Of a stretch of 38,689 nucleotides of DNA, positions 1 through 30,639 are shown piece by piece. The stretch spans positions 1 through 38,689 of the forward strand of contig JAFGUQ010000232.1 of assembly GCA_016938455.1 (NCBI GenBank), written 5' to 3'. Position numbers and translations under genes: made by a program. Position 1 is the stretch's first letter. Every line of letters begins with the position of its first letter. Origin of the DNA: Clostridia bacterium (GTDB taxonomy: Bacteria > Bacillota > Clostridia > DUPQ01). The notes under the pieces were generated by a model. That model was given only the letters and a program-made list of their open reading frames with translations. It had not been told where the DNA came from and searched no databases.

Positions 1-363
1 GACAGTCCCTTCCTGCTTGTTTTCTGAACCAGAGACAAGATAATAAAAGCTTGTGGTGTTGAAAAGCGCTTTGATTTTCAAACCTGAATCATTGAAAAAA
101 ATCAGTGCCATGGTATCTGTCATCGCTCCGTCAATGGCTTTTGTCTGCAAGGCAGTATCACGGTCCACTGCACTGTAAAAAAGTTTTAGCTCGATTGAAA
201 GACCCTGTTCAGAGAAATAACCGTTTTCATAAGCAGCTATAAAAGGAATGGCACCGGTATCAGGTAAGATCCCGATAATAATGGTGTCTGACGTTTTTAC
301 ATGACAGCCTGCAATGCTAAATGTCATTAATAAAGATAAAATCAATGATGCCCATTTTTTCAT
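1..363 (-). CDS. ABC transporter substrate-binding lipoprotein (NMT1/SsuA-like), truncated at the window edge
   Basis: Manual minus-strand translation from ATG at 361-363: MKKWASLILSLLMTFSIAGCHVKTSDTIIIGILPDTGAIPFIAAYENGYFSEQGLSIELKLFYSAVDRDTALQTKAIDGAMTD...; lipobox FSIAGC; open to the window edge, so absent from the ORF track. Divergent from the cluster holding its probable ATPase and permease. Confidence 0.8.
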   Translation of the reverse strand, partial: MKKWASLILSLLMTFSIAGCHVKTSDTIIIGILPDTGAIPFIAAYENGYFSEQGLSIELKLFYSAVDRDTALQTKAIDGAMTDTMALIFFNDSGLKIKALFNTTSFYYLVSGSENKQEGTV

Positions 364-401
364 AAACCTTGTTACGCTCCTTGAGTTTTTGAATTTATTG
401 G

Positions 402-407
402 TATAAT
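402..407 (+). promoter_or_regulatory. Putative extended -10 (TGGTATAAT) for the ubiD-led operon
   Basis: TGGTATAAT in the divergent intergenic region; weak -35 TTGAGT at 381-386 with short spacing. Confidence 0.45.
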
Positions 408-448
408 ATCATAATAACAATAATAACGTCTATTATTTGGAGATAATA

Positions 449-1897
449 ATGAAAAATTACAGAGATATAAAAGAATTCATAAAAGTGTTAAAAGAAAAAA
501 ATCTTATCGTTGAAATAGAAGCAGAAGTGGACTGGGACCTGGAAATTACTGAGATTACTGATATCATCAGCAAAAAAAACGGGAAGGCTCTGCTTTTCAA
601 TCATGTCAAGGGAAGCCGCTATCCCGTACTGATTAACACATTTGGGTCATATGAACGAATGGCATTGGCATTAGGGGTGAAGGATATAAATGACATCAAG
701 GATGAAATAGTGAAATTTCTTGATTTATCAAATTATCAGTCGCTAAAAGATAAGATAAAAGCCATTCCATCATTATTACCGCTGCCTTTTATTTTCCCTC
801 AGAAAGTCAAGAACGGCAAATGTCAGGAAGTGATTGAGAAAAATCCTGATCTGACTCAGCTTCCTGTATTGAAATGCTGGCCGCAGGATGGCGGACGCTT
901 CATTACCCTTCCTATGGTTTTCACCGTTGACCCTGAGACCAGACAGCAGAATGCCGGTATGTACAGAATGCAGGTTTATGATGAGAAAACAACTGGAATG
1001 CACTGGCATATGCATAAAGATGGTAAGAAAATCTATGATAAATACAGAAAGCTCGGTATCAGGAAAATGCCTGTTTCGGTTGCAATCGGCTGTGACCCGG
1101 CTACTGTATATGCTTCAACCGCTCCGCTGCCCCAAAACATAGATGAACTTCTGTTTTCAGGGTTTTTAAGAAAAAAAGCAGTTAAAACAGTGAAATGCAT
1201 CACTAATGATATTTATGTCCCTGCATATTCAGAATTTATCCTGGAAGGATATGTTGATATTGATGAGACCAGAATAGAGGGTCCTTTTGGTGACCATACA
1301 GGGTATTACTCTCTGAAAGATAAGTACCCTGTATTTCATGTTGAATTGATCACTCACCAGAAAGAACCTGTTTATATGGCTACAGTTGTGGGGCAACCAC
1401 CTATGGAAGACTGTTACATGGGAAAAGCAACTGAGAGAATTTTTCTTCCACTGATAAAAATGCAGTGCCCAGAGATTATAGAACTTAATCTGCCGCTTGA
1501 AGGTGTGTTTCATAATTGCGCTATTGTCTCCATTGATAAACAATTTCCTCACCATGCGAGAAAAATAATGAATTCATTGTGGGGGATGGGCCAGATGATG
1601 TACACAAAAATGATCATTGTTGTTGATAAGGACGTCAATCCGCATGATTTATCAAAGGTAATGTGGAAAGTGTTTAATAATATTGATGCCAAAAGAGACC
1701 TTGTCATCTCTGAAGGTCCTCTGGATGCGCTTGACCATTCTTCTGACACTCCTTTGTTTGGAAACAGGCTTGGGATAGATGCAACTAAAAAATGGGAGAC
1801 AGAAGGACATACAAGAGAATGGCCTGATGATGTGACCATGAGTGATGAAATCATAAGAAAAGTAAAAGCACGATGGGGCGAATATGGAATTGATTAA
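449..1897 (+). CDS. UbiD-family decarboxylase (prenylated-FMN dependent; possibly MqnL-like)
   Basis: UbiD-family motifs: YRMQVYDEKTTGMHWHMHKDG, EGPFGDHTGYYS. The ATG at 449 has a good RBS (TTTGGAG), preferred over the TTG at 437. Confidence 0.9.
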   Translation: MKNYRDIKEFIKVLKEKNLIVEIEAEVDWDLEITEITDIISKKNGKALLFNHVKGSRYPVLINTFGSYERMALALGVKDINDIKDEIVKFLDLSNYQSLKDKIKAIPSLLPLPFIFPQKVKNGKCQEVIEKNPDLTQLPVLKCWPQDGGRFITLPMVFTVDPETRQQNAGMYRMQVYDEKTTGMHWHMHKDGKKIYDKYRKLGIRKMPVSVAIGCDPATVYASTAPLPQNIDELLFSGFLRKKAVKTVKCITNDIYVPAYSEFILEGYVDIDETRIEGPFGDHTGYYSLKDKYPVFHVELITHQKEPVYMATVVGQPPMEDCYMGKATERIFLPLIKMQCPEIIELNLPLEGVFHNCAIVSIDKQFPHHARKIMNSLWGMGQMMYTKMIIVVDKDVNPHDLSKVMWKVFNNIDAKRDLVISEGPLDALDHSSDTPLFGNRLGIDATKKWETEGHTREWPDDVTMSDEIIRKVKARWGEYGID

Positions 1898-2744
1898 AAG
1901 AATAAAGACTTATTCAAAATTAGTCATGATGTCGCATACACTGTTTTCCTTGCCTTTTGCCTTGTTAGCTATGCTGATTGCTGCAAAAGGATTACCATCA
2001 TTCTGGAAAATTTTGTGGATTGCAGTAGCATTATTTGGTGCCAGAAATGGGGCAAACGCTCAGAATCGTCTGATTGACAGGCATATTGACAAGAAAAATG
2101 AAAGAACAAAAAACAGAGAGATTCCAGCTGGAAAAGTATCTGTGAAAGAAACGGTCTTTCTAATCGTGTTTTTTTATGCATTATTTGTATTAGCAGCATT
2201 TATGCTTAACACACTATGTCTGATATTATCTCCTGTGGCTATTCTACTGTTTTCGTTATATTCATATACAAAAAGGTATACTTATCTTTGTCATTATATA
2301 CTGGGATTCATATGTGCAGGTGCACCGGTTGGAGCATGGATTGCCATCACAGGGACCATTGCCCTCACACCATTTTTAATTGCCGCTGCAGTCATGTTCT
2401 GGGTAGCAGGATTTGATATCATCTATGCACTGTCAGATATTGAACATGATAAAAAAGAAGGGCTTTATTCGATTCCTTCCAGATTCGGCTATCAAAAGGC
2501 TTCACTGATTTCCTCTGCTTCACACTTTCTCATGGTATGCTTTTTAATTTCAGTTACTTTTTTCACAGAGCTTGGATGGTTGTACTTATCAGGTATCGGA
2601 ATATGTGTGATCTTACTTGTCATTGAGCATATTCTTGTTTTACCATCGAGTGAAAGTAAAATGAAGTTTGTTTCCTATACAATTAACCAGTATATAAGTG
2701 CTGTTGTTTTACTTTTTGCAGTCTTTGATATATTCTTGATATGA
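1884..2744 (+). CDS. UbiA-family prenyltransferase (MqnP/UbiA-like)
   Basis: Two Asp-rich motifs: NRLIDRHIDKKNERTKNREIPAG and DIEHDKKEGLYSIPSRFG; multiple TM segments; overlaps the ubiD end by 14 bp. Confidence 0.9.
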   Translation: MELIKRIKTYSKLVMMSHTLFSLPFALLAMLIAAKGLPSFWKILWIAVALFGARNGANAQNRLIDRHIDKKNERTKNREIPAGKVSVKETVFLIVFFYALFVLAAFMLNTLCLILSPVAILLFSLYSYTKRYTYLCHYILGFICAGAPVGAWIAITGTIALTPFLIAAAVMFWVAGFDIIYALSDIEHDKKEGLYSIPSRFGYQKASLISSASHFLMVCFLISVTFFTELGWLYLSGIGICVILLVIEHILVLPSSESKMKFVSYTINQYISAVVLLFAVFDIFLI

Positions 2745-2752
2745 GGTGAATT

Positions 2753-3310
2753 ATGAAAAAAATAATCATTGGAATTACAGGTGCTTCAGGTGTGATCATA
2801 TCGCAGAAAATCATTGAGTTTTTAAACAGCCATGATAACGTCATTTATATTGTCATTTCAGATAACGGCAAAATTGTTTTTGAAAAAGAAACAGGTCAAA
2901 GTTTCAATGAATATATTAAAAAAATTCAGAATGTGACTGTGGTCGACAATAAAGTCATGGACAGTTTTCTTGCCAGCGGGTCAAATGACATTGACGGCAT
3001 GGTGGTTGTTCCATGCTCAATGAGTTCCTTAGGAAAACTTGCCAATGGAATCACTGACAATCTGATTATTCGTGCTGCGGATGTGATGATAAAGGAAAAA
3101 AGAAAACTGATTATTGTTCCAAGAGAAACACCTCTAAATTCAATCCATCTTGAAAACATGTTGAAACTGTCCCAGCTTAATGTGGTCATATTTCCTCCTA
3201 TGCCTGCTTTTTACAGCGGATTGAAAGATATTGATGACATGGCCAGTCAGATGGCAGGCAGAATCATAAAACTGCTTGAAATCAAAAACAACTTATACAG
3301 GAAATATTAA
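2753..3310 (+). CDS. ubiX: UbiX-family flavin prenyltransferase
   Basis: GITGASGVI, PCSMSSLGKLANGITDNLI, PRETPLNSIHLENMLKL, PPMPAFY. Confidence 0.93.
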   Translation: MKKIIIGITGASGVIISQKIIEFLNSHDNVIYIVISDNGKIVFEKETGQSFNEYIKKIQNVTVVDNKVMDSFLASGSNDIDGMVVVPCSMSSLGKLANGITDNLIIRAADVMIKEKRKLIIVPRETPLNSIHLENMLKLSQLNVVIFPPMPAFYSGLKDIDDMASQMAGRIIKLLEIKNNLYRKY

Positions 3311-4020
3311 TGATAGAATTTGATCATGTCACAGTAAAATATGGTGAGAAAAAAGCACTGGACAGTTTGTCGTTTCACATTGATAAAGGGAAAATTGTTT
3401 CTGTCATCGGCCAGTCCGGCTGCGGAAAGACTACTATGATTAACTGCGCTGCTAAACTGATTGACAATGATTCCGGAGTGATAAGGATGGATCAGCAGTT
3501 TTCGTTAATTCCTCAGGGATATTCTCTTCTGTCATGGAAGAATGTGATGAAGAACATAGAACTTGGATTAGGAATTAAGAAAATGGATCAGTCACAAAGA
3601 AACAAAGCCTGCATGGAAGTCATGAAGCAACTTGGAATTGATCATTTAAAAGATAAATACCCTCAGTTTTTAAGCGGAGGAGAACAACAGAGAGTGGCTA
3701 TTGCCAGAGCACTAGTATTGAATCCAACAGTCATTCTGATGGATGAACCGTTTTCAAGCCTTGATCAGATTACCAGAGAAAAGGCCCAAGAGTTACTTCT
3801 TGAAATTAAAAACAAGTATCATATGACAATTCTGATGACAACTCATAGCATCGAAGAAGCATGCTTTTTATCAGATCAGCTTTTTGTGATGGGAAAAGGA
3901 AAATTGTCTCATGTTGTCAAAAATGAACAGAACAGGGACAATACCTATAGAAACAGTGAGCATTATCATCAAATGACCATACAAATCCGTACTTTGCTTG
4001 AAGAAAGTGTGATGGCGTGA
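3310..4020 (+). CDS. ABC transporter ATP-binding protein (SsuB/TauB-type)
   Basis: Walker A GQSGCGKTT, signature LSGGEQQRVAIARAL, Walker B VILMDEPFSSLD; ATG overlaps the UbiX stop codon. Confidence 0.93.
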   Translation: MIEFDHVTVKYGEKKALDSLSFHIDKGKIVSVIGQSGCGKTTMINCAAKLIDNDSGVIRMDQQFSLIPQGYSLLSWKNVMKNIELGLGIKKMDQSQRNKACMEVMKQLGIDHLKDKYPQFLSGGEQQRVAIARALVLNPTVILMDEPFSSLDQITREKAQELLLEIKNKYHMTILMTTHSIEEACFLSDQLFVMGKGKLSHVVKNEQNRDNTYRNSEHYHQMTIQIRTLLEESVMA

Positions 4021-4763
4021 GAAAAACAATTTTTACCGCATTATCCCTCATTCTGCTGATTCTATTATGGTATATTGTCTCATTTCTTGCAGACACTTCT
4101 GCTATCCCATATTTTCATCAAGTCATCCGGCATATCGACAATCTTACTTTGAAAGAGATTTTACTTAATCTTTCTGTCAGCTTAGTAAGGATATTCATAG
4201 GGATGATTCTAGTGGTGATCATTGCGGTTCCTCTTGGAATCATCATGGGATTAAACAGGAAAGCAAATGAATTCATGAACGGGTTCACTTATCTGCTTTA
4301 TCCAATTCCTAAAGTTGCTTTTCTTCCTGTTATTCTTGTGCTTTTTGGTATCGGTGGAATGACTGCGGTGATTATGGTTTTTCTTGTTCTCTTCTTCCAG
4401 TGCCTTGTCAGCGTCAGAGACAGCATCATAAATGTCGATACTGCTCTTTTCAACTGGATGAAAACGACCGGCGCAACTAAGAGCCAGATGATTTATCATA
4501 TTATACTTCCGTCCATTGTCCCTTCATTATTGACTTGGGTAAGAGTGGGTCTTGGAACATCGCTTGCCGTACTCTTTTTTGCCGAGAACATTGCAACGGA
4601 TAAAGGAATCGGTTTCTTCATTCTGGACAGCTGGTCTAGAATAGATTATATGGACATGTATCTTGGAATCATCTTTCTTTCCATAGCCGGGTTTATTCTT
4701 TTCAATCTGATTGGTCTGCTGGAAAAAAGAGCACTGAGATATCGTAAGGTCATTCAAAAATAA
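4017..4763 (+). CDS. ABC transporter permease (SsuC/TauC-type)
   Basis: Hydrophobic permease with EAA-like loop (NWMKTTGATKSQMIYHIILPSIVPSLLTWVRVGLG); GTG start overlaps the ATPase stop by 4 bp. Confidence 0.9.
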   Translation: MRKTIFTALSLILLILLWYIVSFLADTSAIPYFHQVIRHIDNLTLKEILLNLSVSLVRIFIGMILVVIIAVPLGIIMGLNRKANEFMNGFTYLLYPIPKVAFLPVILVLFGIGGMTAVIMVFLVLFFQCLVSVRDSIINVDTALFNWMKTTGATKSQMIYHIILPSIVPSLLTWVRVGLGTSLAVLFFAENIATDKGIGFFILDSWSRIDYMDMYLGIIFLSIAGFILFNLIGLLEKRALRYRKVIQK

Positions 4764-4979: not shown

Positions 4980-5957
4980 ATGAAGAAATCCCTAATCTTA
5001 ATTTTAACAGTTGTATTGATCGTGACACTACTGGCTGGCTGCGGTAAAGAAGCAGCTACCCCATCTAGCACAGCAACTCCAACTGCGACACCAGCACCAA
5101 CTGAAAGTTCAACAGACGCTGTAACCACAGCTTCCATCGTTGACAATGGTGCAGCATTAATCAATGCATTAAGCGCAAACGGAACATGGATTGCCGCTAC
5201 ACTTAATGACATTACCTTAACAGAGGACTTAGTTGTCGAAGGTATCTTTTACAACAAGGAAGTAGTGGCCAGAAAAATCGGACCATATACTCAGGATGCT
5301 GATCACAACATCACAGCTTCATTTACAATCACAGCACCGAAACTGATTGTCAGAAGTGAAAACACAAAATTCCAGGGTGGAAATTTTGTAGGCGACATTT
5401 ATGTCAATGCTAATGGATTTACTCTTAGTAAAGCTAATATCACTGGAAACATCTATTTTGAAACTAAAGCATACATGGATTCTTTTGTAATAGATGAAAC
5501 AAGCACAGTATCAGGTAAAAAAGAAGTCACAGCAGTAGATGGCGTGACAACAGCATCAATCGTAGATAATGCTGCTGCACTGATTAAAGCTGTAAGCAAA
5601 GATGGTGCCTGGATTGCCTGCACAGTCAATGATGTGACAGTTCTTGAAGACCTGATTGTTGATGGCGAATTTATAAGCAAAGAAAAAATAGCCAGAAAAA
5701 TCGGACCATACACCCAGGATGCTGATCATAATATCACCGCTTCATTCACAATCACCTATCCAAAGATGATTGTCAGAAGCGAAAATACAAAATTACAGGG
5801 CGGAATCTTTGTTGGAGACATCTATGTGGAAGCAAACGGATTCACCCTAAGCAAAGCCACTGTTAAAGGTAATATCTATTATTCAAAACAGGAATATAAA
5901 GACTCATCTGTTACAGATGAAGTGTCTGTAGTCACTGGAGTATCTGAAGTCAAGTAA
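4980..5957 (+). CDS. Secreted lipoprotein with two homologous ~140-aa tandem repeats
   Basis: Signal peptide and lipobox LLAGC, Thr/Pro/Ala-rich linker, then two copies of DAVTTASIVDN...YTQDADHNITASFTIT...VRSENTK.QGG.FVGDIYV.ANGFTLSKA. Confidence 0.85.
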   Translation: MKKSLILILTVVLIVTLLAGCGKEAATPSSTATPTATPAPTESSTDAVTTASIVDNGAALINALSANGTWIAATLNDITLTEDLVVEGIFYNKEVVARKIGPYTQDADHNITASFTITAPKLIVRSENTKFQGGNFVGDIYVNANGFTLSKANITGNIYFETKAYMDSFVIDETSTVSGKKEVTAVDGVTTASIVDNAAALIKAVSKDGAWIACTVNDVTVLEDLIVDGEFISKEKIARKIGPYTQDADHNITASFTITYPKMIVRSENTKLQGGIFVGDIYVEANGFTLSKATVKGNIYYSKQEYKDSSVTDEVSVVTGVSEVK

Positions 5958-6025: not shown

Positions 6026-7033
6026 TTAATATAATTGAGTAAAAGGAACGGTATTACCTATCCCTGAGGTTTTAAAGATTTCTCCGCTTTGATTAACGAA
6101 AACAGCTTCTGTATCAGGGAGGGTTTCAATCAAAGCCATGGCTTTTTCTATGCTTAGAGCAAAACAGGTGGTTGATAATGCATCTCCATCAACGGACTTG
6201 TCAGAGATAATTGACACACCGGTGATGTCGCTTTCATAAGGATACCCGGTAAAAGGATTAAGAATATGATGGTATCTGATTCCGTTTTCAATAAAGAAAC
6301 GTTCATAAATTCCTGAAGTGACTACTGATTTCACCCCGACATCCACAATGGCCAGATAGTCTCCTCTGTTTGACATAGGATCTTGAATGCCTATTTTCCA
6401 CAGTTCCTTCGTTGGCTTAATTCCGACAGTTAAAACATTACCACCTAAGTTGATTAATGCGCTGTTACACCCATTCTCATCAAGTAGTGCGGCTACTTTA
6501 TCAGCAATATACCCTTTAGCTATTCCGCCAAGATCTATAACCATGCCTTCATATGGCAGAAATACACTGTTCTTAGCGTTATCAATGATAATATCCCGAT
6601 AATCTATATGCATAAGCGCCTGATCTATTTCAGTCTGGGCAGGAACTTTTGCTCCTTCTTCACCGATTTTCCATAAGTTGACTAAAGGTCCGATAGAAAT
6701 ATCAAAAGCGCCATCGGAAAGAGTACCATACTCAATTCCTTTTTTTATGACTTCCATCGTTTCCGGTGACACGACAGTCTCAGAAATCCCTGCATGCTGA
6801 TTGACTAGATAAATATCACTTCCTTCAATGCTTTTTGAAAGAAGATTTTCGAGTCTGGTTATCTCTGTAAAACACTGATCAATAAGATCATGACTGCTGC
6901 CATCATAAAGTGTAATCGTCACGACTGTCCCTAAAGCAAAATAGGTATCAGAAACAGGGGTAGGATCAGTTTTTGGCTGGCAACCGGTCATTATAACAAG
7001 AATCATACATAGTAAAACAATCATTTTTTTCAT
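6026..7033 (-). CDS. FAD:protein FMN transferase lipoprotein (ApbE family; FmnB-like)
   Basis: Lipobox IMTGC; ApbE motifs YFALGTVVTITLYD, DGAFDISIGPLVNLWKIG, DLGGIAKGYIADKVAALL, NLGGNVLTVG, HHILNPFTGYP. Confidence 0.93.
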   Translation of the reverse strand: MKKMIVLLCMILVIMTGCQPKTDPTPVSDTYFALGTVVTITLYDGSSHDLIDQCFTEITRLENLLSKSIEGSDIYLVNQHAGISETVVSPETMEVIKKGIEYGTLSDGAFDISIGPLVNLWKIGEEGAKVPAQTEIDQALMHIDYRDIIIDNAKNSVFLPYEGMVIDLGGIAKGYIADKVAALLDENGCNSALINLGGNVLTVGIKPTKELWKIGIQDPMSNRGDYLAIVDVGVKSVVTSGIYERFFIENGIRYHHILNPFTGYPYESDITGVSIISDKSVDGDALSTTCFALSIEKAMALIETLPDTEAVFVNQSGEIFKTSGIGNTVPFTQLY

Positions 7034-7080
7034 AATATAAGTATTATATGAATGATAGTAAAATGCAACAGGAAATTATT

Positions 7081-7110
7081 ATTGTACAAAATTTGTTATT
7101 ATTTTAACAA
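7081..7110 (-). promoter_or_regulatory. Putative apbE promoter (minus strand TTGTTA-18-TACAAT)
   Basis: Minus-strand -35 TTGTTA (7105-7110), 18-nt spacer, -10 TACAAT (7081-7086). Confidence 0.5.
7093..7110. promoter_or_regulatory. Inverted repeat TTGTTA-N6-TAACAA, Rex-like operator candidate
   Basis: TTGTTATTATTTTAACAA matches TTGTTAANNNNTTAACAA at 13 of 14 defined positions; lies in the divergent apbE/ndh2 intergenic region over the apbE -35/spacer. Confidence 0.5.
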
Positions 7111-7156
7111 TAACCTGCTGTTTTTTGCGATTTTGATGTATAAAATGCTAATTTAC

Positions 7157-7186
7157 TTGTCTAAATCAAGATTAATCATATACAAT
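7157..7186 (+). promoter_or_regulatory. Putative ndh2 promoter (TTGTCT-18-TACAAT)
   Basis: -35 TTGTCT at 7157-7162, -10 TACAAT at 7181-7186, ~39 bp before the ATG. Confidence 0.5.
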
Positions 7187-7224
7187 AGTATCAATGAAAT
7201 ATAAAACGAAGAAAGGTAAACAAT

Positions 7225-9036
7225 ATGAAGAAAATAGTTATATTAGGTGGTGGCTATGGTGGCCTGCTGACTGCTAAGAAAATTGCAAAAAAGGTCAAGA
7301 AAGCAAAAATAACTGATAGTGTCAGTATCACTTTAATAGATAAGAATCCCTACCACACCATGCTTACTGAACTTCATGAAGTCGCTGCCGGAAGAGTTGA
7401 TGAAGAATCAATTAAAATCGATTTTGATAAGGTCTTTGCAAAAAGAAAAGTCGATGTTGTATTAGATGAAATCATAGCAGTTGACTTTGAAGAACAGACT
7501 TTAAAAGGACAGACCGGTAAAGAATATCAGTATGATTATCTTGTCATCGGTGCTGGTTGTCAGCCAGCATGTTTCGGAATAGACGGAGCAAGAGAGAATG
7601 CACTGCCTTTATGGGCATATGAACATGCTGTCAATGTCAAAAATCATATTCTCGATATGTTCAGAAGTGCAGCTTCAGAGCTAGACCCGCTGGAAAGAGA
7701 AAAGAAACTCACTTTTTTTGTTGCAGGTGCCGGCTTTACCGGAATTGAAATGATTGGTGAACTGGCAGAATGGGTTCCGATTCTCTGCAGAAAATTCAAC
7801 ATACCAAGAAAAGATGTCAAACTGTATGTTTCAGATATGATGAATAAGATTTTACCGAATCTTCCACAGAAACTGATTATCAAAGCTGAAGTAAGATTAA
7901 TTAAAATGGGTGTTGAAATTTTAACTGGTAATCCAATTACAGAAGTAGGCTCTGATTTCATTCTTATCGGAAATACAAAATACAATACAAGGACAGTCAT
8001 TTGGACTTGCGGAGTTGAAGGAAAAGAATTCATCAAAGATTTTTCTATTGAACATAACATCAGAAAGAGAATTGCTACCAACTCATTCCTGCAGAGCAAG
8101 GATAAAAGCAATGTCTATGTTGTCGGAGATAATATTCTATATATTCCAGAAGGCGAAACCACTCCTGTTCCTCAGATGGTAGAAAATGCAGAGCATTCAT
8201 CAGCGACAGTAGCTAATAACTTAATGGTCGCTTTAACCGGTAATGGGGAAATGGAAGATTATAATCCAAAGTTTCATGGCATGATGGTCTGCATTGGCGG
8301 CCGATACGGTTTAGCCTATTTAGGTACTCATAAAAAGAAAATGGCTTATCCGAGATTCATCGCCATGTTAGCAAAACATATGATTAATCTCATTTACTTC
8401 ATACAGGTAGCAGGCTGGAATAAATGCTACTCCTATATGATGCATGAGTTTTTCCATATTGATAACAACAGAAGCTTCGTTGGCGGATACTTTGGAAAAC
8501 GCTCTCCGAATTTCTGGATGTTACCGCTTCGTATGTTTGTTGGAATTAAATGGTTGCTTTCAGGCATAGAAAAATTACCTCAGATTATCGAAGATCCTTC
8601 AAAGATATTCCTGTTTCAATTGCCGACAGATGCAGTAACAGCAGCATCAGACGCTGCAGCAGTAAGCACCTATGGAGAAGCATTGAAGGTTCCTGAGTTC
8701 ATTGCCAATATTTCTGACTGGGCATTAAAGATTTTCATCGCACCAATTGCTCCTTTTTTCCAAGGCGGAATGGTAGTGGCAGAGATTATCATCGGATTAT
8801 GTTTTATCGGTGGATTCTTAAGTGCACCTGCTGCTGTAGTCAGTGCCATCATGTGTGTGATGATATATGTATCAGGGTCAGCGGCACCTGAAATACTCTG
8901 GTATTTCTTCGCAGCCATTGCTTTGATTGCCGGCTCTGGAAGCACCTTCGGAATGGATTATTATATACTGCCCTGGTTTAAAAAATTATGGAAGAAAATC
9001 CCATTTGTAAAAAAATGGTATTTGTATAATGACTGA
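7225..9036 (+). CDS. ndh2: Type II NADH dehydrogenase with C-terminal DoxX-like membrane domain (EET Ndh2-like)
   Basis: N-terminal FAD motif VILGGGYGGLLTAKKI, VFVAGAGFTGIEMIGELAEW-type second nucleotide-binding motif, VYVVGDN; C-terminal multi-TM region (LRMFVGIKWLLSGIEKL ...). Confidence 0.9.
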   Translation: MKKIVILGGGYGGLLTAKKIAKKVKKAKITDSVSITLIDKNPYHTMLTELHEVAAGRVDEESIKIDFDKVFAKRKVDVVLDEIIAVDFEEQTLKGQTGKEYQYDYLVIGAGCQPACFGIDGARENALPLWAYEHAVNVKNHILDMFRSAASELDPLEREKKLTFFVAGAGFTGIEMIGELAEWVPILCRKFNIPRKDVKLYVSDMMNKILPNLPQKLIIKAEVRLIKMGVEILTGNPITEVGSDFILIGNTKYNTRTVIWTCGVEGKEFIKDFSIEHNIRKRIATNSFLQSKDKSNVYVVGDNILYIPEGETTPVPQMVENAEHSSATVANNLMVALTGNGEMEDYNPKFHGMMVCIGGRYGLAYLGTHKKKMAYPRFIAMLAKHMINLIYFIQVAGWNKCYSYMMHEFFHIDNNRSFVGGYFGKRSPNFWMLPLRMFVGIKWLLSGIEKLPQIIEDPSKIFLFQLPTDAVTAASDAAAVSTYGEALKVPEFIANISDWALKIFIAPIAPFFQGGMVVAEIIIGLCFIGGFLSAPAAVVSAIMCVMIYVSGSAAPEILWYFFAAIALIAGSGSTFGMDYYILPWFKKLWKKIPFVKKWYLYND

Positions 9037-9412
9037 TAAAAAAAGACGAAGAAATGACTATGTTGTTATCGTTCTGTTATTTCTGATTCCTTTATTATTC
9101 CTTCTTGCATTTTATGCAGGAAGGAATAATTCAACCGCTGATTCAGTTTCTATTGAAGTGAATAATGAAACTTATGGAATATATCCATTGAATGTTGACA
9201 GGGAAATTCATCTTCACGATGATAAAATTGACAATCTGGTGGTTATAAAAAACGGGGAAGTATTTATAAGCGAAGCGAACTGTAAAGATCAGATATGTGT
9301 CTTTCACAGTCCAATCAGTAAACAGGGAGAACAGATTGTCTGTCTGCCAAATAAAGTAGTGGTGGAAATCATAAGCAGTGAAAAAAATATCATTGATTCA
9401 TTGTCTCAATAG
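9029..9412 (+). CDS. eetA: NusG domain II-containing membrane-anchored protein (EetA-like)
   Basis: N-terminal TM; CKDQICVFHSPISKQGEQIVCLPNKVVVEI is typical of NusG_II; overlaps the ndh2 end. Confidence 0.87.
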   Translation: MTDKKRRRNDYVVIVLLFLIPLLFLLAFYAGRNNSTADSVSIEVNNETYGIYPLNVDREIHLHDDKIDNLVVIKNGEVFISEANCKDQICVFHSPISKQGEQIVCLPNKVVVEIISSEKNIIDSLSQ

Positions 9413-9421
9413 GAGAGAAAA

Positions 9422-9955
9422 TTGACAAAGAGAATTGCATTGACAGGAATAATGATGGCGCAAGCCCTTGTATTAAGTTTTTTCGAAAGACTTATTCCGA
9501 TTAATTTCGGGATTCCGGGGGTGAAACTCGGGTTAGCGAATATTGTTTCGCTGGTGGCCATATTCATATTAGGACCTGTTCCGGCACTCATGATACAAAT
9601 TGGAAGAATTCTTTTAGCCGGGTTAATGTTCGGAAGTGGAGTCAGTATCTTTTACTCACTCAGCGGAGGAATGCTGAGCATTCTGATCATGATACTCATT
9701 TATAAAACAGATATGCCGAAAGTAACCATTATAGGACTTAGTACAGTAGGGGCTGTTTTTCATAACATCGGACAGATTCTTGTGGCGGCATTAATTGTCA
9801 AGTCACTGAATATAGCTTACTATTTACCGATTCTTATGGTGTCAGGCGTTATAACAGGAATTTTTGTGGGAATAACAAGCAGGTATCTTGTCAAGGCTTT
9901 ATACAAATGGAATATGACAGGGAGTAATCAAAGTGGAATTTTGGAAAGACTATAA
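9422..9955 (+). CDS. eetB: Gx transporter family protein (EetB-like)
   Basis: TKRIALTGIMMAQALVLSFFERLIPINFGIPGVKLGLANIVSL, typical of Gx transporter / HepA component I family; multi-TM. Confidence 0.87.
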   Translation: MTKRIALTGIMMAQALVLSFFERLIPINFGIPGVKLGLANIVSLVAIFILGPVPALMIQIGRILLAGLMFGSGVSIFYSLSGGMLSILIMILIYKTDMPKVTIIGLSTVGAVFHNIGQILVAALIVKSLNIAYYLPILMVSGVITGIFVGITSRYLVKALYKWNMTGSNQSGILERL

Positions 9956-10895
9956 TGGTCTTGGATCAGAAATAGAATATGTGAAGAATATCATTAAGGA
10001 AAACCTGAGTGACAGTCCTCTATATATGAAAGATATCATCAATCATATTTTAGAAGCCAAAGGTAAATTTATAAGAGCAGCGCTTGTCATTGAATCTGCC
10101 AGTCTTGGAAAGAGTGATTTTAAAAGAGTTGCTGAAATAGCGGCTGCTATTGAAATACTTCATTTAGCTACATTGATTCATGACGATATCATTGATGAGG
10201 CGATCATGAGAAGAGGGACAGAATCCATTCAGCACCGTTATGGAAAAGATAAGGCAGTCGTGTGTGGTGATTACCTGTTTGCCAAGAGCTTTTCACTTTT
10301 ATCTTCAGATTACCAGGAACACATGAAATACCTTTCAAAAGGGGTTGAGAAAATCTGCCTTGGAGAAATTTATCAGCAGACTAACCGGTTCAACACTCAA
10401 TTAACAGTCAGACAGTATCTTCGAACAATTTCAGGAAAAACAGCAGCACTGTTTGCCATGTGCCTGTATGCAGGCGGACTTGAAGCAAAACTGAAAAAAG
10501 CACAACTTAAAAATTTAATAAGATGCGGGTATGCGATGGGAATGAGTTTTCAGATTATTGATGACTGTCTTGATTATAACGGGACAGATCTTACAATTGG
10601 AAAATCTGCAAAGAAGGACTTGCTTCAGGGATACTACACATTACCATTGATCTATGCGATTGATAACGACCAGAACGAAGTGTTAAGCGAAAAACTGGAG
10701 TTGCTTGCAGAAGAAAGTTTTGAACTTGATAAAATCATACAACTGGTCAATCAGCTCGATGGAGTAGTAAAATCAAAAGCTGTTGCAGAAAAATACATCA
10801 ACAGGGCAGATAAGTACCTGATGCTGGTTGATGATAAAGAAAATATCATAAAACTGAGAAAATTAATGCAGTTTCTGTTGAAACGAAATTACTGA
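9933..10895 (+). CDS. Polyprenyl diphosphate synthase (DmkB-like)
   Basis: LIHDDIIDEAIMRRG (FARM) and IDDCLDYNG (SARM) Asp-rich motifs; GTG start overlaps the eetB end by 23 bp. Confidence 0.9.
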   Translation: MEFWKDYNGLGSEIEYVKNIIKENLSDSPLYMKDIINHILEAKGKFIRAALVIESASLGKSDFKRVAEIAAAIEILHLATLIHDDIIDEAIMRRGTESIQHRYGKDKAVVCGDYLFAKSFSLLSSDYQEHMKYLSKGVEKICLGEIYQQTNRFNTQLTVRQYLRTISGKTAALFAMCLYAGGLEAKLKKAQLKNLIRCGYAMGMSFQIIDDCLDYNGTDLTIGKSAKKDLLQGYYTLPLIYAIDNDQNEVLSEKLELLAEESFELDKIIQLVNQLDGVVKSKAVAEKYINRADKYLMLVDDKENIIKLRKLMQFLLKRNY

Positions 10896-22406: not shown

Positions 22407-24566
22407 ATGAGTAAAGCACTATCTTATCAGGACAGACTTGACAGAATCAGAGAGATAAAAATGATTCAGACAAAAGAGAAACAGCGCATCTATGGAACTG
22501 ATGGCTATTGGGATATGGATGATAAAGGATTAATTGCACCGCCAGAGTCATTTACCTTTACACCTGAAAGCGATCAGGATGACGGTGAATATTATGGAGC
22601 TAAAATGACTGGATTGAATTACAGGAAACTTCTGGAATCGCATCCTGTCTATATTAATCCGATGAGTTCACTTGCCGGTGGATGGATGTACAGTTTTTAT
22701 GATATAAAAAAACCGAAATGGGATTCACGCATAGACTACTCTTTTTTACATGAACTTCAGGAAAAATACGACCTTGTTCATGGTATCGGAGGGATTCAAC
22801 ATTTCAATGTTGATATTCAAATGGGTCTTACTCTTGGATTTGACGGATTGCTTGAAAAAATCAATAAATATGAGAAACTGCATGGTGAAGACAAGAAAGA
22901 ATTTTATCAAGCAGAAAGAGATGTTGTCCTTGGTATGCTTGACATGATAAGAAGACATGCAGCAGCTGCAAAAGTAATGGCTGAAACAGAGACAAGAGAA
23001 GACATAAAAGAAAATCTCCTGAAAATGGCCTCTGTTAATGAGAAATTACTGATTAGTGCTCCTGAAACATTTCATGAAGCATGTCAATGGGTGGCCTGGT
23101 TCATTCTTTTTGCTGTCATGTATGACTTTAACGGTGCTGGAGGCTCAATCGATAAATATCTTAGACCTTTTTATGAAAGGGATATCAAAGAAGGAATCTT
23201 GACTGAAGAAGAAGCTGTTTTCCATTTAGCCTGTCTACTGGTAGTTGATAATGCATATTATGAAATCGGTGGTACTTATGAAGATGGCAGGGACAGAACG
23301 AATAAACTGACATATCTTGTGATTGAAGCTGCTCATAGAATCAGAATCCCAACAAGTATCTGTCTGAGAGTTCACGACAATATGGATAAAGGGGTGCTTG
23401 AACTGGCTGTTAAGTATCTGTTTGAAGATGATATGGGAACACCAAGCTTTTTGGGGCATGATGCGGTAGTTGAAGGCTTCATGAAAAACGGGTATCCGAT
23501 TGAACTTGCCAGACAACGTGAAAAAACAGGCTGTCACTGGTGTGCGCTTCCAGGTAGAGAATACACTTTAAATGATATTGTCAAGATCAGCTTTCTCGCA
23601 GTGTATGATGTCGCCTTTAAGGAAGTAATCAATGACTCAGAGCATTCTCCGTCTGTTGAAAGAATATGGGACAGTTTTGTGAAACATCTTTCTATTGCAG
23701 TGGATACTATTGCAGCAGGTATGGATTTTCATTTGAAACATATGCATAAAGTGTTCCCTGAATTAATGCTGAATTTATTATGTCATGGACCGATTGAAAA
23801 AGGACTGGACATCAGCAACGGCGGAGTTGAATATTATAATTTATGTGTGGACGGAGCAGGACTGGCCACTGTCGCAGACAGCTTTGCCGCAATTAAACAA
23901 CGTGTGGAAATTGAAAAGAGAATCAGCTGGGAAAAGTTGAAAGAAGTGATCAACAATGACTTTGAAGGAGCTGAGAACATCAGACTGATGCTTAAAAATA
24001 TAAAACGATTTGGAAACGGAGATTCAATCGGAGATGAATTCGCAAAACGAATTTCAGAAACATTTACACAGCTTGTCAAAGAAAAACCGACACCTGAAGG
24101 AAGAAATATGATTCCCGGTCTTTTCTCATGGGCTAACACGATTCCTTTCGGTAAAAAAATCGGTGCCAGTGCCAACGGCAGACATGCTCATATGCCAATA
24201 TCGCATGGAGCTAATCCAGATCCCGGTTTTTCAGATGGTGATACTCCAACAGCAATGGCTAAAGCGGTGGCATCAGTACAGTGCGGATATGGAAATACCG
24301 CTCCGTTACAGCTTGAATTCGACCCTAAAATCGGTGCCACCGAAGAAGGAATCAAACTGATTGTCTCATTTATTGAGAGCCTCTTTCATATGGGAGGAAC
24401 CTTACTTAACATTAACCTTATCAGCAAGGAGAAAATATTGGAAGCTCATAAGGACCCTTCTTTATATCCTGAACTGGTTGTCAGAGTCACAGGCTTCAGT
24501 GCTTACTTTGCCAGTCTTTCAGAAGAATTCAGACAGCTGGTAGTGAACAGAATTGTTGAAGGGTAG
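22407..24566 (+). CDS. Glycyl radical enzyme (pyruvate formate-lyase superfamily), substrate unassigned
   Basis: C-terminal glycyl radical motif RVTGFSAYF (Gly696) 23 residues from the end; putative active-site TGCHWCALPGREYT (Cys376); followed by an activating enzyme. Confidence 0.9.
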   Translation: MSKALSYQDRLDRIREIKMIQTKEKQRIYGTDGYWDMDDKGLIAPPESFTFTPESDQDDGEYYGAKMTGLNYRKLLESHPVYINPMSSLAGGWMYSFYDIKKPKWDSRIDYSFLHELQEKYDLVHGIGGIQHFNVDIQMGLTLGFDGLLEKINKYEKLHGEDKKEFYQAERDVVLGMLDMIRRHAAAAKVMAETETREDIKENLLKMASVNEKLLISAPETFHEACQWVAWFILFAVMYDFNGAGGSIDKYLRPFYERDIKEGILTEEEAVFHLACLLVVDNAYYEIGGTYEDGRDRTNKLTYLVIEAAHRIRIPTSICLRVHDNMDKGVLELAVKYLFEDDMGTPSFLGHDAVVEGFMKNGYPIELARQREKTGCHWCALPGREYTLNDIVKISFLAVYDVAFKEVINDSEHSPSVERIWDSFVKHLSIAVDTIAAGMDFHLKHMHKVFPELMLNLLCHGPIEKGLDISNGGVEYYNLCVDGAGLATVADSFAAIKQRVEIEKRISWEKLKEVINNDFEGAENIRLMLKNIKRFGNGDSIGDEFAKRISETFTQLVKEKPTPEGRNMIPGLFSWANTIPFGKKIGASANGRHAHMPISHGANPDPGFSDGDTPTAMAKAVASVQCGYGNTAPLQLEFDPKIGATEEGIKLIVSFIESLFHMGGTLLNINLISKEKILEAHKDPSLYPELVVRVTGFSAYFASLSEEFRQLVVNRIVEG

Positions 24567-24568
24567 TC

Positions 24569-25465
24569 ATGGAAGGAATAATATTTGACATACAGCGGTT
24601 TTCAATCAGCGACGGACCAGGAATAAGAACGACTGTCTTTCTTAAAGGCTGTTCTTTAAAATGCATATGGTGTCATAATCCGGAGTCTATCAATAGCAAA
24701 AAAGAATTACAGATTGTCAGTCATAAATGCATTGGCTGCGGTAACTGCATCGCAGTTTGCAGAAATCACGGATATGAAATGATTGACGAAAAAAAAGTTT
24801 ATTATAAAGACAGATGTCAATTATGTGGAGAGTGTGTTTCTCAGTGTTATTCTAAAAGCCTGCAGATGTCAGGGAAAAATATGACAGTAGAGGAAGTCAT
24901 GACAGAAATAAGAAAAGATTTGACCTTTTATGAAGATTCTAATGGAGGGGTGACATTTTCCGGAGGAGAACCTCTGCTACAAAGCTTATTTCTGAAAGAA
25001 CTATTAAAAAAGTGTCAATCAGAAGGGATTCATACCGCAGTGGATACTGCTGGGAACGTACCTTTCGGGTCATTTATGCATATCATCGATTATACAGATC
25101 TGTTTCTTTTTGATCTTAAAATGATGGATAGGGAAAAACATAAAAAATATACCGGTGCTTTTAATGACCTGATTCATGCTAATCTGAAAAAATTGGTTCA
25201 GCTTAAAAAACATGTTTTTATCAGAATACCTGTGATTCCAGGTATCAATAACAGCAAAGAAGACATGCAGAAACTCATCGAATTCATTAAAAATCTACCA
25301 ATCGATTTAGTTGAACTTCTTCCATACCACAGTCTTGGTGGAAGTAAATATGAGAGTCTTGCCATTCCCTATGAACTGGCATCATTAAAAACTCCCACTA
25401 AAGAAGAAATGACTGAAATTGGAAAATGGTTTAAGCAGGCAAATATTAACGTAAAAGTTTCGTAA
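24569..25465 (+). CDS. Glycyl radical enzyme activating protein (radical SAM)
   Basis: GPGIRTTVFLKGCSLKCIWCHNPES (CxxxCxxC) plus two extra cluster motifs CIGCGNCIAVC and CQLCGECVSQC; TFSGGEPLLQ. Confidence 0.95.
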   Translation: MEGIIFDIQRFSISDGPGIRTTVFLKGCSLKCIWCHNPESINSKKELQIVSHKCIGCGNCIAVCRNHGYEMIDEKKVYYKDRCQLCGECVSQCYSKSLQMSGKNMTVEEVMTEIRKDLTFYEDSNGGVTFSGGEPLLQSLFLKELLKKCQSEGIHTAVDTAGNVPFGSFMHIIDYTDLFLFDLKMMDREKHKKYTGAFNDLIHANLKKLVQLKKHVFIRIPVIPGINNSKEDMQKLIEFIKNLPIDLVELLPYHSLGGSKYESLAIPYELASLKTPTKEEMTEIGKWFKQANINVKVS

Positions 25466-27147: not shown

Positions 27148-30100
27148 TTATTCAACATACTCATAACTGGCATAAATGGCATAAAAATAATTACTTATGA
27201 TAAGCATGCCTTTGTCTTCAGTTTTCAACCCAATACCTGAAAGCAATTCCAGTTTTTTCGCTGCATTACCGACAGACCCGTAATCAGGTACCTTAAATAC
27301 TACTATGACAGGAGAAGCGCTTGATTTTCCATCTGTGCTTGAAGTAGAAGATACCAGTCCCTTAGTGTTCCCCCAGCCGTCATAATAAATGCCTAGTCCT
27401 GATGTTGAAGCTGTATCTGTGGTATCACTGATTGTCTGACTTTTATAGCTGAAACTTATTTCCTCACCTGGAATCAGTTTTTCGGGCAGATCATCCCAGC
27501 TGATGATATATGTTGTCGTCTCCACTTTTCCGTCAGGATAAGTGGTTGTGTTTGTTAAATCGAAGGTAGTTTTTGTTGATTTGCTGACAGCTCTGGTTTT
27601 TATTCTCGAATCACTGCTGCTGGTAGTGGTGGTGTCATTGGACAAGGGATCCGGATAGCTGTAATCTACTCTTTTCCAGTAGCCCCCATTACCTTCCTTG
27701 ACAATAAAAGTACCACTGATAGTTACATCAGGTTCCTGGATAAAAACACCTGTCACCAGATAAGTTCCAGGCACATCAGGAGCAATGGTGCTTGGTTCAC
27801 CTGATTTATCTGTATAAAGAATATCCTTACCTGTTGCCTGTTTATACATAGCAGCAGTTTTGTCATCAGCAGGTTTTGCAGACCATTTATAATGATTTAC
27901 AGATTCATAAGTGCTTGTCACAGAATGATTGCTTTCGATTTTTACAGTCATTCTGTCACCTGGAAGGTATTCTGCTTTATCAAAAGCAAGCCATCTTGTC
28001 AAAGCAGCACTTGATGCCTCGGGTGTTTCAGCAGGAACAGGTGAAACATCTACAGATTGAACCTCCACAACAGTTGTACCAAATGCTTTTAAAACAGTCA
28101 TTCCGCTGTTCTCATAAGCCGAGACTTTGACTTGATAGCGTCCAGGTTGACTATAGCTGAATTCTGCTTTTGAAAGGTCTATTTTTTCCTGACTGTTTCC
28201 GTCTCCTGACTCCCACTTATAATATAAGCCAGAGATGAGTTGAGTCTTCATTTCAGCTTTTTGATTAACTTCAGGAGTCTTCGGGGTTACTGATATAGTT
28301 AGAATATCTGTTTTACTGATTTGTATTTTCCCTTCAGCGATGACCTTGTCGGTTGATTTATCGGTCACTTTTGCGATGATATTCTGAATATTATTTTCTT
28401 CAAACTCATAAGCTAAACGACCTTTGATACGCCCATTCTTGTTCTTATAATCTTCTGAACCAAGAAATGTACCATCCTCAAGCTCCCAGCTGACGGTGAC
28501 ATCAGAAATCATTTTGGGGATATTATCTGCTGTAGCATCAAACTTATATAATTTATCAGGTTCTGTTGTTTCTATTTTAGAAGGTTTAAGAATAAGAGAA
28601 ATATCGCTTACTTTCACATTGACTTTCTTTCCGGCTTTATTGCCATATGCGGTTATCATCATGATTTCACTGTTGCCTTCAGTGAAATTTACCACAAGAT
28701 AGTCTCGACTGCTGTTAAGTGAACCAACAGGTTTCTGTCCGCCATCTACTCTCTGATATGAAATGGTATCTCTGTTAAACCCGCTCATTTTAAAGACATC
28801 AATCCAGACACCATCAGGTAAATCTCCGTCAATCTCAACAATAAATGACTTTCTCCCGTCACTGTTATATGTCTTTGCCTCTGTCCAGACAGCAGTCATT
28901 GACAGATCGTTTACGATAGTCATTGGAATGGTTATCACTTTTTTCCCGCCGAAAGATTTAGCTCTGACCCCGATATCTACAAATGAAAAAGCCGGGCGAT
29001 TGCTGTTTGTCAGTACATCCTGCCAGAAAAGCTTATACCTGATATCATTGCCTGTGCCAGTCAATGTCTTGACATAACTGTCCAACCCCTGTGTCGGGGA
29101 AGAGCTGTCTGAGATAATGGTATTCCAGAGAGTCCCGAAATCAGAACCATTATCGACAAGATACTTGATATAACTGGACATGCCATATTCCTGACCACCT
29201 GCTCTGTTTTCATAAAACTGAAGATTTTTATCAGTTCTCGTATAGGTGTGAATCGTTTTTATCTCCAGATTGTTCCCGACATAATAACTGGCATATTCAG
29301 CGGTTGCTTCCATCAGCCAGCGATTGTTATTCATAGTCATTACATTCAGCTTATAATTCTGAAAAGCATGAAACAGTTCATGAGCAGCGGTGGTTTTCAT
29401 ATCTTCTGAATCTTTGTATTTTGAAGGCAGCTTAATATGCTTGCTTATCCAGCCGAATTCTGCTCCATATTTATTATATGAAGAGGAAAGCATGACAATG
29501 GCTCTGGTATCCACTATTTCCTTTGTACTGCTATACCAGCTTCTTGGATTTAATGTCGCGGCGATATATTCATACGCGATTAACTGAAACTGAGGTGTAT
29601 TGCTGACCCCAAGGACATTGTAATAGGATGAGTAAGATTCATCGAGAATATCACCCAGCTGCTTTGCAAGACTTTCCATGCTGGTTGCAGTGTTTACATT
29701 ATCCACATCGGCTTTTTCTTTTCTGTTATATGCAACAAGGAAATGTTTGCTTTCATAAACTGAATACATTTTCTTAAGTGCGAAGAGTCTCCAGTTTGTC
29801 AGATGATCAGTGTAAACACGTACTATTCTATTATTCATGTCTACATGGGAAGGTGCTTCAACCCATTCAAGGCTTTGCTCATCCCAGTATGCAGCTCGGA
29901 TATAACTGCAATCATCAAGTTTTTCGTCAATGCTGAACTCAATGACCATAGCATCATTGAAAGCTGTTTTATCTCCGAGGGTAATACTGAAGACATCAGT
30001 CTGTTCATAGATCTCATCAGAGAAACCAGGAGCATTTAATACCTTTGAAATAGTGAGCTGCTCATCACTGCTGATGATACCAGGCGGTAGTGTGACGCTG

Positions 30101-30489
30101 ATATCCTCTGTACCTGCGGTGACCTCGCTATCAGATGGCTTTACTGTTTTTTCAAAAAGAACTTCATATTCCTCTTTTATAAGCTCAAAAGAAATTGACT
30201 TGCTCTGTTTTTCATCTTTTACAATATAAATTTCTCCTGTTTCTGCACCGACTGGCACTTTAACTTTTATTTCACTTTTACTCCAGAGACTGATTACAGC
30301 CTCCACATCGCCAAAGAAAACTTTTGAGTCTTCGGCAGAATCACCGAAAAAATGTCCCTTGAGTGTAATGGTTTCTCCTACAGCACCGCTTTTTGGCGAT
30401 ACTTTACTTAATTTGGCATCACACCCTGTAAAAAGAACAATCATAAAAACGATTGAACACAAAATTAGCAGTTTTCTAAATTTATCCAT
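27148..30489 (-). CDS. Large surface lipoprotein with IPT/TIG domain, HExxH metallopeptidase-like region and PKD-like domain
   Basis: Lipobox LFTGC; IPT/TIG (KVSPKSGAVGETITLKGHFFG); AHELFHAFQ + NNRWLMEATAEYAS; PKD-like YKWESGDGNSQEKIDLSKAEFSYSQPGRYQVKVSAYE; RBS AAAGGGG before ATG at 30489. Confidence 0.8.
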   Translation of the reverse strand: MDKFRKLLILCSIVFMIVLFTGCDAKLSKVSPKSGAVGETITLKGHFFGDSAEDSKVFFGDVEAVISLWSKSEIKVKVPVGAETGEIYIVKDEKQSKSISFELIKEEYEVLFEKTVKPSDSEVTAGTEDISVTLPPGIISSDEQLTISKVLNAPGFSDEIYEQTDVFSITLGDKTAFNDAMVIEFSIDEKLDDCSYIRAAYWDEQSLEWVEAPSHVDMNNRIVRVYTDHLTNWRLFALKKMYSVYESKHFLVAYNRKEKADVDNVNTATSMESLAKQLGDILDESYSSYYNVLGVSNTPQFQLIAYEYIAATLNPRSWYSSTKEIVDTRAIVMLSSSYNKYGAEFGWISKHIKLPSKYKDSEDMKTTAAHELFHAFQNYKLNVMTMNNNRWLMEATAEYASYYVGNNLEIKTIHTYTRTDKNLQFYENRAGGQEYGMSSYIKYLVDNGSDFGTLWNTIISDSSSPTQGLDSYVKTLTGTGNDIRYKLFWQDVLTNSNRPAFSFVDIGVRAKSFGGKKVITIPMTIVNDLSMTAVWTEAKTYNSDGRKSFIVEIDGDLPDGVWIDVFKMSGFNRDTISYQRVDGGQKPVGSLNSSRDYLVVNFTEGNSEIMMITAYGNKAGKKVNVKVSDISLILKPSKIETTEPDKLYKFDATADNIPKMISDVTVSWELEDGTFLGSEDYKNKNGRIKGRLAYEFEENNIQNIIAKVTDKSTDKVIAEGKIQISKTDILTISVTPKTPEVNQKAEMKTQLISGLYYKWESGDGNSQEKIDLSKAEFSYSQPGRYQVKVSAYENSGMTVLKAFGTTVVEVQSVDVSPVPAETPEASSAALTRWLAFDKAEYLPGDRMTVKIESNHSVTSTYESVNHYKWSAKPADDKTAAMYKQATGKDILYTDKSGEPSTIAPDVPGTYLVTGVFIQEPDVTISGTFIVKEGNGGYWKRVDYSYPDPLSNDTTTTSSSDSRIKTRAVSKSTKTTFDLTNTTTYPDGKVETTTYIISWDDLPEKLIPGEEISFSYKSQTISDTTDTASTSGLGIYYDGWGNTKGLVSSTSSTDGKSSASPVIVVFKVPDYGSVGNAAKKLELLSGIGLKTEDKGMLIISNYFYAIYASYEYVE

Positions 30490-30639
30490 TTGTAACCCCT
30501 TTACATGCAAAAAAATATTTTATTACACATGTGATTCATTTTATCACACAGTGGTTTCTTTTTATATGTTTTTATATTTGAAATCTTGTTTTGACTTATC
30601 CTTTATTATATAATTCAAAAAAGTGAGGAAATTGATTGC

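Follow-up and report, generated by a model that had tools for sequence, protein, structure and literature searches.

A candidate ABC importer family for dihydroxynaphthoates encoded beside the last steps of menaquinone biosynthesis in Bacillota

At the start of the window analysed here, a stretch of 38,689 nucleotides from a Clostridia bacterium (contig JAFGUQ010000232.1), genes for three enzymes of the UbiD, UbiA and UbiX families run directly into those for the ATPase and the permease of an ATP-binding cassette (ABC) importer, and a substrate-binding lipoprotein is encoded divergently (Table 1). The importer trio, its relatives in other Bacillota and its proposed substrate, a dihydroxynaphthoate used to build menaquinone, are the subject of this report. 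The window is a complete contig (G000:C124) of a 2.99-Mb genome in 301 contigs that is estimated to be 91.5% complete.

The genes are packed as tightly as a preliminary description of this sequence had stated. The TAA of the UbiD gene ends at 1897, giving a 14-bp overlap with the UbiA gene (ATG at 1884); the UbiA stop codon (TGA, 2742-2744) and the UbiX start (ATG, 2753) are 8 bp apart; the UbiX TAA (3308-3310) shares one base pair with the ATPase ATG at 3310 (TAATG); and the ATPase TGA (4018-4020) overlaps the GTG of the permease gene (4017) by 4 bp. For UbiD, we place the start at ATG 449, which has GGAG upstream, and regard the listed TTG at 437 only as an upstream alternative. The ATPase carries Walker A (GQSGCGKTT), signature (LSGGEQQR) and Walker B (ILMDEP) motifs. 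The divergent NMT1/SsuA-like lipoprotein was likewise found as described, with a lipobox (SIAGC, Cys20) and matches over the cut-offs of the Pfam profiles NMT1_2 and NMT1. Since the window is the whole contig, this protein is cut at 121 aa by the assembly and not by biology. It shares 38% identity over 125 aa with a full-length trio protein of Mahella (E 1e-27) and, judged by these similarities, is the cognate binding protein of the importer. With an NMT1/SsuA-fold binding protein, a BPD_transp_1 permease and an ATPase encoded together, the trio is a type I importer of the NitT/TauT (SsuABC-like) group, and both the domain set and the binding-protein fold agree with its earlier classification as SsuABC-type.

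Table 1. Features of the importer gene row and of the downstream electron-transfer locus in the window
Feature	Position	Strand	Basis
Substrate-binding lipoprotein, N-terminal 121 aa only	1..363	-	lipobox + NMT1_2/NMT1
Intergenic region separating the divergent binding-protein and mqnL genes; both promoters presumably here	364..448	.	sequence
UbiD-family decarboxylase, MqnL type	449..1897	+	TIGR03701, UbiD Pfam domains
UbiA-family prenyltransferase, MqnP-like	1884..2744	+	TIGR01475 ubiA_other
UbiX-family flavin prenyltransferase (MqnM)	2753..3310	+	NF004685, TIGR00421
ABC importer ATPase	3310..4020	+	PF00005
ABC importer permease, GTG start; single subunit, presumably homodimer	4017..4763	+	PF00528
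ApbE flavin mononucleotide (FMN) transferase (FmnB-like)	6026..7033	-	PF02424
Ndh2-type NADH:quinone oxidoreductase, presumed quinone user	7225..9036	+	PF07992
EetA-like protein, NusG domain II	9029..9412	+	PF07009, 97.9 bits
EetB-like protein, Hpre_diP_synt_I	9422..9955	+	PF07456, 145 bits
DmkB-like polyprenyl diphosphate synthase, makes quinone tail	9933..10895	+	PF00348, 206 bits

The three enzymes are not a ubiquinone set; they are the tail of the futalosine pathway, MqnL-MqnP-MqnM in the naming of Ravcheev and Thiele (PMC4746308). UbiD scores 642.6 bits on TIGR03701 mena_SCO4490, the menaquinone biosynthesis decarboxylase model (cut-off 495.9), and is thus an MqnL, and UbiX exceeds the cut-offs of NF004685 and TIGR00421. 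UbiA reaches 293 bits on TIGR01475 ubiA_other (cut-off 180.8) and stays below the NCBIfam exception cut-offs for MqnP (231-258 bits versus 375-430); as only the ubiA_other subfamily model is satisfied, we assign it an MqnP-like function from its neighbouring genes. The early part of the pathway, MqnA, MqnC and MqnD, was not recovered in the same genome: the best MqnC profile match is a generic radical-SAM match of 38 bits, and the best match to MqnA/MqnD (PF02621) comes from an ordinary binding protein (29 bits). For MenD of the alternative route, the best score is 49 bits (cut-off 244). Judging by its gene content, the window organism could apparently attach a prenyl tail to a dihydroxynaphthoate and decarboxylate it, but seems to lack the means of producing this compound.

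A scan of a species-level genome collection returned at least 484 relatives of the permease, and the neighbourhoods of the best 80 loci were inspected. The row or part of it recurs in Mahella (L031), a Thermoanaerobacteraceae metagenome-assembled genome (L035), Thermotalea (L038), Thermoanaerobacterium (L052), Anaerosolibacter (L077), Caloramator (L096) and Fonticella (L032), as well as at two further loci (L036 and L099), and in the metagenome-assembled genome, Caloramator and Fonticella the trio is also flanked by genes for extracellular electron transfer (EET). Two genomes of distant families (G022 and G047) share the order ubiD-ubiA-ubiX-SBP-ATPase-permease, SBP being the binding-protein gene. 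Because relatives thus place the binding-protein gene between UbiX and the ATPase, the translational coupling of UbiX to the importer, which the preliminary description had emphasized, is not a conserved property. Proximity as such is conserved: in a sample of 399 genomes drawn evenly from the phylum, 30 genomes of 16 families have the permease gene no more than 12 kb from mqnL, compared with an expectation of about 0.7, and the adjacency of ubi and importer genes therefore exceeds chance.

This persistent linkage bears on the nature of the substrate. Some quinone auxotrophs use decarboxylated or preformed naphthoquinones, e.g. menaquinone-4 in Streptococcus agalactiae (PMC6030563), and the importer could conceivably carry such a compound (1,4-naphthoquinone, menadione or a short-chain menaquinone). 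In that case, however, MqnL and MqnM would be needless, yet both are kept in the importer gene row, which makes this explanation highly improbable.

Some loci of the row have additional members. At two loci from different families (L188:10454-13841 and L189:10729-14100), genes for a class III aminotransferase and a U32-peptidase-family protein, the latter distantly UbiU/TrhP-like, stand between the binding-protein and ubiX genes. In family f133 (L158, L159, L184), apbE lies directly 5′ of the binding-protein gene; downstream of the trio comes a conserved set of genes, one of them for a ferredoxin-type protein, so named by the appearance of its sequence.

In the 399 genomes, MqnL and MqnC were located alongside the permease family, which a profile of 18 sequences separates (at least 222 bits) from the other NitT/TauT permeases listed (at most 153 bits); one 161-bit gene fragment adjoining mqnL was also counted. 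The window permease scores 314 bits on this profile, being itself one of the 18 sequences. MqnC was made the main marker of the early pathway because weak PF02621 matches in the relatives (20-36 bits) turned out to be ordinary binding proteins, and the use of PF02621 as main marker of MqnA/MqnD was dropped. Overall, the permease family is present in 115 of the 399 genomes. Where MqnL exceeds its curated cut-off and MqnC is missing, 39 of 41 genomes carry it, representing 23 of 24 taxonomic families (39/42 if MqnL is accepted by E values up to 1e-130), compared with 47 of the 88 genomes with both MqnL and MqnC and 25 of the 258 with neither (10%). Carriage is thus 93% without the early pathway and 53% with it. 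Fisher tests that ignore phylogeny give p 1.4e-29 for the association of permease and MqnL and p 3.4e-6 for late-only versus complete pathway; because of this neglect, more weight should be given to the count by families. In a control comparison, MqnL showed no association with other NitT/TauT permeases, occurring in 12 of 67 genomes that have only these and in 32 of 217 that have none (p 0.56).

The early pathway seems to be truly missing from these genomes. No PF02621 match above 44 bits was found in the late-only genomes tested, whereas MqnC-bearing genomes yield 180-267 bits, and among 56 trio genomes checked for MenD, not one had a match over the cut-off. Genome incompleteness is not the explanation, because several late-only genomes are single contigs of at least 99% completeness (G047, G144, G175, G217, G403, G492). 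The survey of whether the ABC genes travel with ubiAXD where the early pathway is missing was hence strongly positive, and it lends support to the earlier suggestion that the imported substrate feeds the UbiA/UbiD/UbiX reactions.

A separate observation concerns PF02621 itself: most MqnC-bearing genomes of the sample have a single copy, pointing to a divergent or replaced MqnD in many Bacillota. We rejected the idea that the trio makes up for loss of MqnD in such genomes, as among them two copies of PF02621 occur in 14 of 44 with the trio and 9 of 36 lacking it, with no clear difference.

A second type of linkage is seen in genomes that lack the futalosine tail altogether. Among the 25 sampled trio genomes without MqnL and MqnC, eight have a UbiA-family prenyltransferase beside the trio. 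In L155, L157, L163 and L164, this is an unambiguous MenA (TIGR00751 215-250 bits, cut-off 102), whose gene separates that of the binding protein from that of the permease. A divergent protein that we call MenA-like only, as its TIGR00751 score of 72-77 bits is below the cut-off, is encoded in L152 and L154 and also in L019, which is not part of the sample, and further UbiA-family/MenA-like relatives are found at the trios of L162 and L172. The genome of L019 (G046), the one menA-linked genome in which MenD was checked, carries the trio next to the MenA-like gene, and MqnL, MqnC and MenD are all missing from it. The naphthoate prenylated by MqnP or MenA would therefore appear, from these gene neighbourhoods, to be the common denominator of trio-linked loci. 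As the other substrate shared by the two enzymes, polyprenyl diphosphate, is made inside the cell, dihydroxynaphthoate is the only sensible import. Both the co-occurrence and the adjacency to mqnP or menA that a dihydroxynaphthoate importer should display were thus observed. In the menA-linked clade, a conserved protein of ~205 aa, TetR-type by look, is encoded just 5′ of the ATPase gene (L157, L160, L163-L167) and is a candidate naphthoate- or quinone-responsive regulator.

The menA linkage also helps to judge two further explanations. It is conceivable that the importer supplies a flavin (riboflavin or FMN) for prenyl-FMN formation by UbiX and for flavinylation by ApbE, given that both are flavin users and that apbE adjoins the binding-protein gene in family f133; moreover, riboflavin-binding NMT1-like proteins (RibY) are known. 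Flavin import would explain neither the menA linkage in genomes without MqnL nor the carriage of 93% versus 53% according to the early pathway, though both groups have MqnL and need prenyl-FMN. Additionally, EetB has been reported as the flavin-export ECF-S (energy-coupling factor, substrate-binding) subunit of such loci (PMC9973259), and we consider flavin import improbable. Import of futalosine or cyclic dehypoxanthine futalosine, to be converted by an undetected MqnD, draws on the fact that PF02621 is often single-copy in MqnC-bearing genomes, so that MqnD can escape detection. It is very improbable nonetheless, for it leaves the menA linkage unexplained, MqnA and MqnC are missing too, and the 44-bit ceiling of PF02621 in tail-only genomes speaks against a hidden MqnD.

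How far can the importer's own proteins name the substrate? The ATPase, the permease and the binding proteins of the family all stay below substrate-specific NCBIfam cut-offs. The best NCBIfam match of the ATPase is the TauB-like PRK11248 (172 bits, cut-off 357), and sulfonate or taurine import is not indicated, with 104.5 bits versus 163.5 on TIGR01728 for the binding protein and 97 versus 342 on TauC. On a tree with seven other NitT/TauT permeases, a branch supported at 96% (Shimodaira-Hasegawa-like approximate likelihood ratio test, SH-aLRT) separates the family from these; within the family, linkage to MqnP and linkage to MenA each changed several times, and MqnP-linked and MenA-linked clades occur repeatedly. 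The nearest neighbour of the window permease is that of the same-class genome G022, which is ubi-linked.

For the binding protein, an AlphaFold model of the Mahella sequence, built with 47 family sequences, reached a mean predicted local distance difference test (pLDDT) score of 93.1, which marks it as confident, and the modelled protein has the standard fold of the SsuA/TauA/Thi5/ThiY type. Eight residues are invariant in the 46 long binding proteins (Gly37, Pro46, Ala77, Asp89, Arg171, Pro186, Gly197 and Trp290 in Mahella numbering), and Arg171 is a candidate carboxylate ligand. A sequence search of solved structures returned distant matches only (3un6, Thi5, a nitrate transporter and a bicarbonate transporter). 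Could the trio, then, be an ordinary sulfonate or thiamine-pyrimidine importer that stands beside quinone genes by chance? The nearest solved folds and NCBIfam models, SsuA/TauA/Thi5, are of this kind. Set against them are the unmet substrate-specific cut-offs and a synteny and co-occurrence specific to the family and not shared by other NitT/TauT permeases, and a chance placement is extremely improbable. Thiamine or riboflavin genes were not recognised among the neighbours inspected, where riboswitches were not scanned for.

From this context we infer inward transport of a quinone ring precursor, and the trio is, in our judgement, very probably a dihydroxynaphthoate importer. The main substrate in the window organism would probably be 1,4-dihydroxy-6-naphthoate, the isomer expected because the downstream enzymes are MqnP and MqnL, and 1,4-dihydroxy-2-naphthoate (DHNA) is the expected substrate for relatives with a menA-linked trio; the naphthoate substrate foreseen earlier is narrowed accordingly to one isomer per context. 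In the proposed mechanism, the type I (SsuABC/TauABC-like) importer would capture extracellular dihydroxynaphthoate and deliver it to the cytoplasm, where MqnP would join it to a polyprenyl tail from the DmkB-like synthase. UbiX/MqnM would supply prenyl-FMN to MqnL, which would then strip the carboxylate to yield demethylmenaquinone. With its ring-synthesis genes missing, the window organism would depend on cross-feeding.

Several points weigh against this proposal. Within its family, the window permease is divergent and sits on a long branch, and its binding protein is incomplete; with a genome 91.5% complete, the lack of the early genes there counts for less than their lack throughout the sample. 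The predicted structure does not name a ligand because its fold matches are generic, SsuA, TauA, Thi5, ThiY and PqqT all being matched at template modelling (TM) scores of 0.64-0.76. About half of the genomes with MqnC and MqnL (47/88) also carry the trio, so that a salvage role must be assumed there; only 23 of 80 MqnC-bearing genomes yield a pair of PF02621 copies, meaning that a divergent MqnD could be missed; and among the best 80 loci, the trios of Selenomonadales and Syntrophomonadales stand away from quinone genes.

The presumed consumer of the quinone is encoded a few kilobases downstream. A flavin-based EET (FLEET) locus with ndh2, eetA, eetB, dmkB and apbE (6026-10895) starts 1.3 kb 3′ of the importer genes, and we infer that demethylmenaquinone would serve this Ndh2/EetAB/ApbE electron-transfer system. 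Between the importer and ApbE lies a gene for a 325-aa lipoprotein (4980-5957) with two imperfect internal repeats. It matches no Pfam profile above cut-off, FMN_bind included, and an FMN_bind lipoprotein was not searched for genome-wide; it is a possible stand-in for PplA. Farther along, the window encodes a pyruvate formate-lyase-like glycyl-radical enzyme with its activating enzyme (22407-25465), which is far under the specific cut-offs (best 286 versus 678), and, on the reverse strand, a 1120-aa lipoprotein-like protein (27148-30510) in which IPT/TIG, PKD-like and metallopeptidase-like parts are apparent by eye.

Transporters for soluble menaquinone precursors have been anticipated. According to published work, they must exist and are undescribed (PMC4746308, PMC5738691), 'remain to be annotated' and call for prediction followed by validation (PMC4746308), and a 2023 study of DHNA use in Lactiplantibacillus plantarum still expects unidentified uptake pathways (PMC10746273). 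In line with the preliminary description, which knew of no established importer for DHNA or other dihydroxynaphthoates, our literature search found none published, subscription journals and preprints being outside its coverage. The trio is likely to represent the first dedicated ABC importer family for menaquinone ring precursors, spread over dozens of Bacillota families, serving both isomers in different clades and revealing a large hidden class of last-step-only quinone cross-feeders, some of which feed flavin-based EET. Many bacteria keep only the last menaquinone steps and rely on neighbours for the ring, and the permease family is a specific and widely distributed candidate for the missing precursor uptake. 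The trio can also serve to recognise quinone auxotrophs and cross-feeders from their genomes, and it suggests an additive to those who cultivate fastidious anaerobes; cultured hosts include Caloramator quimbayensis, Thermoanaerobacterium butyriciformans, Thermotalea metallivorans and Fonticella tunisiensis.

Among known systems, SsuABC/TauABC (NitT/TauT) have the same composition of one NMT1/SsuA-like binding protein, one ATPase and one permease, and their binding-protein fold (3e4r, 2x26, 6ssy) matches the family model; the trio differs in scoring far under the sulfonate and taurine cut-offs, in forming its own branch and in having quinone prenyltransferases as partners. With ThiXYZ/Thi5-like systems and the predicted RibXY, the family binding protein shares the NMT1/Thi5-like fold (3ix1, 4h6d), but the trio is linked to mqn or menA, with thiamine and riboflavin genes unrecognised in the neighbourhoods inspected. 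The same fold is found in PqqT of Methylobacterium extorquens (9b1u, E 4.5e-17, 17% identity), which binds the carboxylated aromatic quinone cofactor pyrroloquinoline quinone (PQQ) with a dissociation constant of 50 nM (PMC12124388), although this is a different cofactor in a Gram-negative bacterium, outside any menaquinone context and very distant in sequence. On the enzyme side, the window tail resembles MqnP-MqnL-MqnM as described from 254 gut genomes, where mqnP/L/M were reported only alongside the Mqn pathway (PMC4746308), but here it occurs without MqnA, MqnC and MqnD and in an importer gene row. A physiological parallel is offered by the partial Men users S. agalactiae and L. plantarum, which have a late prenyltransferase, no ring synthesis and a need for external naphthoate; in contrast to the window, no importer is named for them in the accessible parts of the respective studies (PMC6030563, PMC10746273). 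Taken together, the type of ABC importer is already known, and it is the substrate class that is new.

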